Shown here piece after piece: positions 56,410 to 64,000 of a DNA stretch of 64,000 nucleotides (its first letter is position 1; each line of letters begins with the position of its first letter). The DNA is from Acidobacteriota bacterium (GTDB taxonomy: Bacteria; Acidobacteriota; UBA6911). The stretch covers positions 1 to 64,000 of the forward strand of contig JAFGIY010000237.1 of the NCBI GenBank assembly GCA_016929335.1, written 5' to 3'. Below the pieces are notes generated by a model. The model ran no database searches, had not been told where the DNA came from, and saw only the letters and a list, made by a program, of their open reading frames with translations. Made by a program: the position numbers and the translations under genes.

Positions 56410-56832
56410 TTACTTTTGCGGCTCCTTGAACGGTTTCGTCACCAGTTTGATTTCACTGAATCCGGCGCCGCGAATCTGATCAATGACGGAAACAATGGAG
56501 TTCCACTTAACATCTTTGTCCGCCCGCAAAAAAATGAAATCTTTCGTGCCTTTGGCATCTTTTTTCAGACGGTCCGGAATTGCCGAATATTTAATTTCCT
56601 CCGAGCCATAGTAGATATAGCCTTCTCGGCTGATGGATATGATGATTCTTTCCTCGGGATTGACATCCTTCACATACCTGGTCTCGGGCAACTGCACATC
56701 AATCCCGGTCTGGAGCATGGGGGCTGTTACCATGAATATGATTAGCAGAACCAGCATCACGTCTACAAGCGGTGTGACGTTGATTTCAGAAAGGGAAGTG
56801 GCCGTTCGTCCCTGAGGCGTCGTAAAAGCCAT
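56410..56832 (-). CDS. tolR: TolR/ExbD-type proton-channel subunit
   Basis: A 140-residue inner-membrane protein. The single membrane helix carries the essential aspartate in [20 protein letters not shown] (~20-38), followed by a periplasmic domain with [14 protein letters not shown] and the IYYGSEEI strand. It forms the proton channel with TolQ. Its stop lies 19 bases from the TonB/TolA-like start, and its start shares one base with the tolQ stop. Confidence 0.95.
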
Positions 56833-57569
56833 CAGCTGAAGCTCCGTTCAACAAGATTCAAAAATTCCGATGAAAAATCATCCATCTCCGCCGCAATGTT
56901 TTTCATCCTTGCTACAAAATGATTGTAGGCGATCACGGCAGGTATCGCGGCAAATAATCCCGCTGCCGTTGCGATCAGGGCATCGGCAATCCCCGGTGCG
57001 ACAGCCTGGATTGAGGCAGTGGCTCCTCCGAATCCAAGGCGGCTGAAAGCACTGATGATTCCGACCACGGTTCCCAGCAGGCCGATGAAGGGTGTTACCG
57101 AACCGGTCGTTGCCAGCCAGCTCATCCCCTTTTCAAGAATGGAAAGCTCTGCCGAGGAAGCTCTCTGAAGCGCACGCTGTATGCCGACGATCTGGCGGTC
57201 AACCAGGACAGGATGGTTGGGATCAGCGGAATTTGCGGTCTTTATCTGAGCGTTCAATTCACGATATCCGGCGCTGAATATTCCGGCAATAGGAGTATCC
57301 CGGTAAAGCTCGCACGCGGAACTGACTTCGCTTAGCCGGGAGCTTTTTCTGAACATGGAGATGAAAGCCTGACTTTTTTGGCCGATCTGGCGAAAGGTTA
57401 ACCATTTGCGAAAAATTATGGTCCAGGAAAGAAGTGAAAAGGCCAGCAGCAGCAGCAGTATTATGATCGCAAAAGCACTGGTTTGCGCAAGCAGGCCGGA
57501 AAATGAGCCTCCAAAGGGATCTGCGGGTGGCTCCACCTGAAGCAGCATCAACATTGTTGGTGTAATAAT
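56832..57569 (-). CDS. tolQ: TolQ/ExbB-type proton-channel subunit
   Basis: A ~245-residue inner-membrane protein with three helices (~30-50, 145-170, 185-210). The last two carry the family block [21 protein letters not shown] and [24 protein letters not shown]. It powers Tol-Pal cell-envelope constriction. The frame is open to a TTG at 57608, and an ATG lies at 57554. The best ribosome-binding match, GGGAGG at 57582-57577, is seven bases before an ATT at 57569 and too far (22 bases) from the ATG. The start is therefore uncertain. It is the first gene of the tol run. Confidence 0.93.
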
Positions 57570-57582
57570 GGCCGTTCCTCCC
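57570..57582 (-). promoter_or_regulatory. Shine-Dalgarno match before a possible ATT start of tolQ
   Basis: GGGAGG on the minus strand (57582-57577), a seven-base spacer, then ATT at 57569-57567. Confidence 0.4.
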
Positions 57583-57786
57583 TGAAAATTTTGCACTAAA
57601 ACGCACAAGTATCATAGCGAACTGGGCAAGTCAATTGATTTAAAAATGAAAACCGACGAGGCTGAAATAGGAAAATATAAGGGGCTCCAAAGCGGTGCCG
57701 ACACCTCATCCTTTGACCCTGTTATTGCCAAGACGTCCTATGTTAGACTCAAATTCTGGTTCAACATCCACCACAAGGATCAAAAA

Positions 57787-61668: not shown

Positions 61669-64000
61669 ATGAGAATACTTAACAAGCTTTTATTCCGGAG
61701 CGTTATTCCGCCGTTCTTCATTGCGCTGCTCGTTCTTACATTCGTACTTTTCTTCGAGTTCATAGGAAGCCGTTCTGAGCTTCTCATCAGCAAAAATGCA
61801 TCCCTGGAAGTGATAATGGCGGTTGGCAGCGCCCTGCTTCCTCAGATCCTTATTTATTCCCTTCCTCTTTCCTTTTTAATTGGGATTCTGATTGGACTAA
61901 GCGGACTCTCAGGAGAAAGTCAGATTACAGCTTTAAGGGCTTGCGGTATTCCTATTAGAGCACTTCTCAAGTTTATACTTTTTTGCGCGATCATTATCGG
62001 CCTTATTACGGCGATTTTTTCAACAATTGTCCTGCCTCGCACCAATGCTGCGCTTGCAAGAATGATGGACCGCGTCAGCCTGTCGATCGCAACCTCGCTG
62101 GTGCGGCCCAGGGTTTTTAACGAAGATTTTCCCAATATTGTCTTTTATATAGATGACTTAGCTGCAGATAAACAGCATTGGTCTCGTGTATTTCTGGTAG
62201 ATAACAGCGACTATAATGCGCCGCGAACTCTGATTGCACAGCAAGGCAGCTGGATTGGCGACGGATCAAACCGAAGGCTTCAACTCCACCTGGAAAACGG
62301 TCGAAGTTACTCGTTCACCCCCGAAAAAGACAACCTAAGTGTCTTTGAATCAATGGATATCCCAATTGAAACCAATGACGACCTGCATGCGGCGCGTCAA
62401 AATGAGCCGGCCCCGAGGACAATTGCGGAGCAAAGCACCCTCTACTTATGGCACAATCATCGCAATTCACCGCCGAGTGAAAAGATTGAGCAGTTGGTTG
62501 AATTTTATAGACGAATTGCGCTTCCTTTCTCGGTTTTTCCATTTGCACTTCTGGGACTGGCACTGGCCGCCGGTACACCAAAAGGAAGCAGGACCTCCGG
62601 ATTTGTTATTAGTCTTATAACCGTCATTATTTTCTATGCCTTGTTTGCAAATGGAATCCGCCTGGCAAAAGTGGAAAAACTCAGCCCGCTTTTGGGTACT
62701 TGGAGCGCAAATATGCTCCTGACAGGAGTTGCGCTTCTTCTTATGGCTAGGGTTGAGCATAGCAGGAAAATTGTTCATTATTTATCTTTATTTATATGGA
62801 AATTCCAACAATTTACTTTTGGAAAAAGCCTACTATTTCAGAAACAAATGGGACGACCGAGAGTGATTTCTCATGCAATGCTTCAACGAGCAAACGATGC
62901 TCGCTTCAAGTTTCCCAAAGTACTGGATTCCTACATTTCCAAAGGCTTTTTTGCATATTTTATCTGGTCTTTGATAACCTGCGGAACGCTTTTTGTATTG
63001 CTCACTCTGTTTGACCTTCTTGACGACATCATCCGCAATAACATTTCCACATCCAGCGTCATTGAATATTTTGCCTTTCTCACGCCGCAGATCCTGATGA
63101 TCGTTGTTCCAATGTCAGTCCTGCTGGCAATATTGATTAACTTCGGCATTCTGGAAAAAAACTCTGAGATCACGGCAATCAAGGCGGGAGGATGGAGCCT
63201 CTATCGCATTTCTATTCCAGTCTTTCTAATAGCTTCAGTGCTCTGCATGGGCCTGTTTTTAATGCAGGATTACATTCTTCCTGCTGCCAATGTCCGCCAG
63301 GAGAGCATACGAAACGTTATCAAGGGCAGGCCGCCTCAAACCTCCAGCCGAATGCAAAGAAAATGGATTTTGGGAGAATCCGGCCGCATTTATAACTACG
63401 AATATTTTGACGGAAATCAGGACTCCTTCGTTAACCTTAATGTCTATGACACCGATCTGAATTCCATCCAAATCTTAAGGCGCATTTATGCATCTCGTGC
63501 CCGCATCAATAGAAACGGAACCTGGACTCTCGAAGACGGTTGGATCCGCGATTATCAGTCTGCCCAATCCGGCTTCAAGACAATACAGTCCGAAATCATG
63601 CATTTTCCTGAGAAAGCGGGATATTTTGAGAGGGAAATTTTTCAGCCGAAAGAATCATCCAAGCGCACATACCTGGAATTAAAGGGCTATATAAACGATC
63701 TGCAGAGAACCGGCTATAACGCGGCGGAATTGCAGGTTGAGCTGCACAAGAAAATATCCTTTCCCTTAAGCTGTCTTATAATGGCTCTGCTCGCGATTCC
63801 CTTTTCCTTTTCCACCGGCAAAAAGGGTGCCTTTTTCGGTATCGGAATCAGCATTGCAATCGCCATCTCTTTTTGGGGTATTTCGGGAGTTTTCGAAGCT
63901 CTGGGATCATATGGACTTCTTATCCCCATATTAGCGGCCTGGGCTCCTAACATCCTTTTTGGCGCCGCCGGCCTTGCCCTCCTTCTCACCATCCGCACGT
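61669..64000 (+). CDS. Fused LptF-LptG lipopolysaccharide-export permease (partial)
   Basis: A single open frame of at least 777 codons that runs off the window. It holds two consecutive YjgP/YjgQ permease modules. The first (~1-370) starts MRILNKLLFRSVIPPFF and has ESQITALRACGIPIRALLKF and FYRRIALPFSVFPFALLGLA. After a charged linker the second (~410-777+) starts near LDSYISKGFFAYFIWSLIT and has ILEKNSEITAIKAGGWSLYRI and ELHKKISFPLSCLIMALLAIPFSF. Each half contains the usual helices and a periplasmic beta-jellyroll segment. In E. coli these are separate LptF and LptG subunits. I found no stop or frame change between the halves when reading every codon. The C-terminus is missing. Confidence 0.88.
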   Translation, partial: MRILNKLLFRSVIPPFFIALLVLTFVLFFEFIGSRSELLISKNASLEVIMAVGSALLPQILIYSLPLSFLIGILIGLSGLSGESQITALRACGIPIRALLKFILFCAIIIGLITAIFSTIVLPRTNAALARMMDRVSLSIATSLVRPRVFNEDFPNIVFYIDDLAADKQHWSRVFLVDNSDYNAPRTLIAQQGSWIGDGSNRRLQLHLENGRSYSFTPEKDNLSVFESMDIPIETNDDLHAARQNEPAPRTIAEQSTLYLWHNHRNSPPSEKIEQLVEFYRRIALPFSVFPFALLGLALAAGTPKGSRTSGFVISLITVIIFYALFANGIRLAKVEKLSPLLGTWSANMLLTGVALLLMARVEHSRKIVHYLSLFIWKFQQFTFGKSLLFQKQMGRPRVISHAMLQRANDARFKFPKVLDSYISKGFFAYFIWSLITCGTLFVLLTLFDLLDDIIRNNISTSSVIEYFAFLTPQILMIVVPMSVLLAILINFGILEKNSEITAIKAGGWSLYRISIPVFLIASVLCMGLFLMQDYILPAANVRQESIRNVIKGRPPQTSSRMQRKWILGESGRIYNYEYFDGNQDSFVNLNVYDTDLNSIQILRRIYASRARINRNGTWTLEDGWIRDYQSAQSGFKTIQSEIMHFPEKAGYFEREIFQPKESSKRTYLELKGYINDLQRTGYNAAELQVELHKKISFPLSCLIMALLAIPFSFSTGKKGAFFGIGISIAIAISFWGISGVFEALGSYGLLIPILAAWAPNILFGAAGLALLLTIRT

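Follow-up and report, generated by a model that had tools for sequence, protein, structure and literature searches.

A predicted LptF–LptG fusion permease of the lipopolysaccharide exporter in Acidobacteriota

The gene lptFG, found at the end of a 64,000-nucleotide stretch of an Acidobacteriota genome (hereafter the window), very probably encodes a fused LptF–LptG permease, that is, the entire membrane domain of the ABC exporter that extracts lipopolysaccharide (LPS), working with a separately encoded LptB dimer. In Escherichia coli, the two membrane halves of the exporter of this outer-membrane lipid are separate proteins. An initial annotation of the window had read LptF and LptG in one polypeptide, and subunit profiles, matches to solved structures, a phylogenetic tree and a structural model now agree with that reading. 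On these sequence and model grounds, LptFG is a fusion of two ancient paralogues.

The features of the gene are collected in Table 1. Its frame had been said to run from the ATG at 61669 to the window edge without a stop, and it is indeed open over this whole length. When the reading was extended into the assembly, TAA was found as the stop codon at bases 64000–64002 of contig C50 (84,821 bp); the window edge splits this codon, leaving only its last two bases outside, and the protein has exactly 777 residues. The Pfam family PF03739 (cut-off 27.9 bits) matches twice at near full profile length, at residues ~7–361 with 252 bits and ~422–773 with 267 bits, which bears out the claim of two complete YjgP/YjgQ permease modules. 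A stop or frameshift at residues ~370–420 was looked for and is absent, and the same uninterrupted join is kept in 80/80 named relatives. Therefore, neither an assembly error nor chance accounts for the join; a pseudogene, a frameshift and an assembly join are ruled out, and the gene is a true tandem, as the annotation held. Regarding the neighbourhood, lpxD, a gene of lipid A synthesis (TIGR01853, 367 bits; L003:6766-7821, contig 66765-67820), lies 2.8 kb downstream of lptFG, beyond xerD and murJ on the opposite strand. Elsewhere in the window (56410-57608, minus strand), a TolQ-like and TolR-like gene pair was noted upstream of recN and miaB; these are ordinary envelope genes.

Table 1. Features of lptFG, in window coordinates
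Feature	Position	Strand	Basis
lptFG, fused LPS export permease, 777 aa	61669..64000	+	ORF, PF03739 x2, TIGR04407 + TIGR04408
LptF module, residues 3-361, six TM helices + periplasmic beta-jellyroll	61675..62751	+	profiles, solved relatives, model, tree
Coupling helix, LptF module, residues 85-91, within GESQITALRA	61921..61941	+	model; aligns with E. coli LptF E84 region
Linker, residues 362-418, cytoplasmic by topology	62752..62922	+	alignment, model
LptG module, residues 419-773, six TM helices + periplasmic beta-jellyroll	62923..63987	+	profiles, solved relatives, model, tree
Coupling helix, LptG module, residues 500-506, within EKNSEITAIKAGG	63166..63186	+	model; holds equivalent of E. coli LptG E88

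The two halves were searched separately against the subunit profiles, and they do not match one subunit only. The first half scores best with the LptF model (TIGR04407, 203.7 bits, vs 107.9 for the LptG model TIGR04408) and the second with the LptG model (236.2 bits vs 139.3 for LptF), a margin of ~96 bits for its own profile in each case. The whole protein exceeds the cut-offs of both equivalog models (330.5 bits for TIGR04407, cut-off 230; 331.2 bits for TIGR04408, cut-off 240), whereas the excised halves each fall below their own, that of LptG just so. Both models are matched by all 37 diverse fused members. Among solved structures searched with phmmer, the best relatives of the first half are the LptF chains 6mit_F and 6mjp_F, and those of the second half the LptG chains 6mhu_G and 6mit_G. 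In a maximum-likelihood tree, the F halves fall with the LptF proteins, and the G halves with the LptG proteins, of E. coli, Legionella, Pseudomonas and Sphingomonas; a single label change accounts for the split in every bootstrap replicate (100%), and support for the branch as such is 96/50. Two unrelated Fusobacterium frames that the tree also took in fall outside all groups and leave the split unaffected. The acidobacterial F and G sub-trees are broadly similar, which fits an old fusion that was inherited vertically.

The AlphaFold model of LptFG (mean pLDDT 82.8, pTM 0.72; input alignment of 37 window and named sequences) predicts TM1-3, a jellyroll and TM4-6 twice over. In each module, the periplasmic beta-jellyroll is placed between TM3 and TM4 by the predicted secondary structure and by Foldseek, with the strands of the LptF module at residues 157-233. 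Confidence is low only in two loops and in some stretches of the linker, and the top 30 PDB matches of the model in Foldseek are LptF or LptG chains only. The coupling helix that the annotation expected in each half is present in the model. The conserved coupling glutamate (E84 in LptF and E88 in LptG of E. coli) is kept as E in the LptG half and is Q in the LptF half, as also in the nearest relatives; across sampled proteins it is E in 14/17 F halves and 10/17 G halves. The LPS-contact residues K34, K40 and K41 of E. coli LptG are T, D and D here; these lysines are not conserved in the other aligned LptGs from Proteobacteria either.

Judging from the known topology of LptF and LptG, six TM helices per module would leave both the N and the C terminus in the cytoplasm, so that the two modules can be fused without a change in topology. 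The linker between them measures 46-90 aa (median 55) in 81 proteins, with a median net charge of +7 and a modal identity of 29%, whereas the two modules reach 55% and 62%. It is partly disordered in the model, with pLDDT below 50 at residues 386-388 and 390-413. No well-placed internal ribosome site was found in the linker: none of its in-frame start codons (residues 394, 399 and 404) has a Shine-Dalgarno sequence, and the ATG at residue 359 was rejected as a separate LptG start since the GGAG lies too far upstream.

The annotation had also suggested that such a fusion might be normal in Acidobacteriota, and the survey supports this. At least 531 related named genome loci were found. The best 80 of them are all from Acidobacteriota, Silvibacterium bohemicum (an isolate) and a genome of Edaphobacter being among them, and in each of the 80 a single frame covers both halves. 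When 60 genomes from the genus, family, class and phylum of this bacterium were sampled, 59 had a match, and both halves lie in one open frame in 56 of these 59; in the remaining three, a contig end cuts the match or adjoins it. The family is present in every one of 149 genomes taken across the phylum, at least 95% complete and partly shared with the previous sample; among the matches listed, all are in long frames but for one, which is located at the end of a contig. Apparent single-module genes in three genomes (G158, G001 and G092; loci L174-L176) proved to run off contig ends, and two others (G003 and G010) have only a partial match at or near one. The sole real extra stand-alone copy is found beside a fused lptFG in a genome that is 75% complete (G048). 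This gene (L173, G048:C48:17344-18399) codes for 362 aa of the LptF/LptG family, groups loosely with LptG, and could come from a contaminant or belong to a second system. Another genome carries two complete fused genes (G052:C134 and G052:C163), with frames of 781 and 783 aa. The weakest scores are those of family f31, which we guess may be Holophagaceae; there lptFG is fused too, in frames of 733-815 aa. In its genomes (G062, G071, G079, G087, G095, G102, G109 and others; 3.0-4.5 Mb), LptFG is very divergent and PF03739 is split into several weak matches. No split lptF/lptG gene pair was seen in the sampled Acidobacteriota and the linker is never missing. The fusion is old, normal for Acidobacteriota and invariant in the genomes sampled; these counts cover this phylum only and carry no claim of exclusivity to it.

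Other components of the exporter were located elsewhere in the same genome. LptB is encoded at C229:19162-19872 (TIGR04406, 365.8 bits vs a cut-off of 240). Directly upstream on the same strand of this contig, outside the window, lies an 832-aa ORF (L030:5925-8423, minus) whose product consists of a TM helix, an LptC domain (TIGR04409, 51.4 bits, cut-off 38, residues 17-187), many OstA-like repeats and an LptA domain (TIGR03002, 80.4 bits, cut-off 71.7, residues 711-827). Past lptB come rpoN, hpf, an hprK-like gene and rapZ, all four identified by eye from their sequence and location, in an order much like that of the lptCAB-rpoN locus of E. coli. Searches of the whole genome with PF06835 and PF03968 gave this ORF as the only match of each, with no other LptC or LptA. 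The genome has no match to a stand-alone soluble periplasmic LptA with a signal peptide, its only LptA match being inside the TM-anchored chain; from its domains, the 832-aa chain would work like LptC plus LptA, but it is no stand-alone LptA. An LptD-like protein is encoded on contig C247.

The same architecture was found at 21/21 loci across the phylum, including this one, with an ORF of 607-878 aa adjoining lptB, a single N-terminal TM helix and matches to both the LptC and LptA profiles (LptA at E <= 0.001); the loci were chosen for an LptC hit, and the count describes architecture and not frequency. With a repeat model built from the 832-aa protein, 18 OstA-like repeats are counted in that protein, a circular figure; the same model gives 4-15 in relatives, compared with 0.35 at most in shuffled sequences, and counts 3 in LptA of E. 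coli. No LptCA gene was found within the flanks of the named lptFG loci, and no LptC profile match in family f31, where divergence may be the reason. The periplasmic bridge thus appears to be encoded as one protein in most lineages checked, and we infer that it functions as a single chain. In our opinion, this bridge is the more interesting part than the LptFG fusion.

In the exporter that we propose, the LptF and LptG modules, joined head to tail via a short cytoplasmic linker that stays uncut in the cell, would assemble with two LptB to form a standard LptB2FG transporter from one LptFG chain. LPS would pass via the jellyrolls to LptC and LptA, themselves predicted to be one 832-aa chain here. 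The ratio of F to G would be locked at 1:1. The annotation had held that the fusion fixes both stoichiometry and orientation: the former stands if the chain is uncut, whereas for the latter the fusion adds little, the orientation of LptF and LptG being the same anyway. The exporter in this genome is probably made of four polypeptides (LptFG, LptB, LptCA and LptD) and not of seven. For the phylum, we lean slightly towards an LPS machine of four polypeptides in which a membrane-anchored LptC-repeats-LptA bridge alone spans the periplasm, with its repeat number as a built-in ruler of periplasm width, in contrast with the open-ended LptA oligomer of E. coli.

Other readings of the gene have been weighed. 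The Pfam family common to both halves might suggest a recent in-tandem duplication of one permease, an origin to which we give practically no chance: the halves join true LptF and LptG of other bacteria, in clades with proteobacterial members in every bootstrap, so two ancient paralogues have been fused, and the preference of each half for its own profile points the same way. The tree refutes this candidate. It is also conceivable, and in our judgement unlikely, that LptFG is translated whole and then cut in the linker, so that the exporter at work is a normal LptF/LptG heterodimer and all that the fusion does is ensure equal synthesis. The linker is long and disordered enough for this, and a weakly conserved segment with predicted disorder at 386-413 is of the type cut by proteases; yet the linker alignment shows no evident conserved cleavage motif, and a linker that is always present, in a phylum where no split pair was seen, argues for the uncut chain.

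Even less credit is due to the idea that LptFG is a relative in fold only and exports a non-LPS lipid, such as another envelope glycolipid. The absence of the E. coli LPS-binding lysines would fit it, as would the weak LptD and LptC matches of this genome, but the LptF and LptG profiles score above cut-off at equivalog level, LptB, LptC, LptA and LptD-like proteins are all encoded in the genome, and a lipid A gene is nearby. Export of LPS by an LptB2FG-type transporter is the reading that we prefer.

Compared with LptB2FG of E. coli and other Proteobacteria, LptFG has the same two modules in the same order, the same 6-TM plus jellyroll fold, coupling helices and partner LptB. The difference is that LptF/YjgP and LptG/YjgQ are encoded by two genes in Proteobacteria and form one chain with a 46-90 aa linker in Acidobacteriota. 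In the proteobacterial loci that were fetched, the separate genes overlap by 1 bp (E. coli MG1655) or 4 bp (Legionella, Sphingomonas and Pseudomonas). Stand-alone LptF/LptG family permeases of Bacteroidota share the PF03739 fold, but they are single, unfused modules of ~365 aa. As for the bridge, LptC and LptA of E. coli are proteins of 191 and 185 aa from separate genes before lptB-rpoN-hpf; the acidobacterial gene has the same place before lptB-rpoN, with the LptC profile at the N end and the LptA profile at the C end, yet it encodes one chain with extra OstA-like repeats in between.

No description of an LptFG fusion or of an LptC-LptA fusion, and no experiment on an acidobacterium, was found in the literature searched; where papers use "LptCA", which we considered as a possible fused protein, neighbouring genes are meant. 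Public annotation, we presume, very probably labels the fused proteins "LptF/LptG family permease" already, so that the sequence fact is not hidden. LptFG is a variant of a well-known machine, and it is the meaning and extent of the fusion that seem undescribed. The architecture was passed over in one acidobacterial genome for which an "LptF/LptG" permease is reported (PMC8787282). In a survey in which genes were selected by E-value, hit length, profile coverage and copy number, lptF and lptG were described as "apparently lacking in Acidobacteria" (PMC8871954). A double-length LptFG could well be dropped under such criteria, and a phylum-wide fusion explains how the survey could report the two genes as apparently absent.

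Such gene absences feed arguments on the origin of the outer membrane. Both the published absence claim and the textbook parts lists of the LPS exporter need correcting. Besides, the one-chain LptFG and LptC-LptA would offer ready-made stabilised constructs for structural work. The one-chain exporter with its 1:1 ratio of F to G and, above all, the one-chain LptC-LptA bridge would allow two open questions to be tested in a natural system: whether an unbroken covalent bridge is enough for LPS transport, and whether the length of the bridge matches the width of the periplasm.
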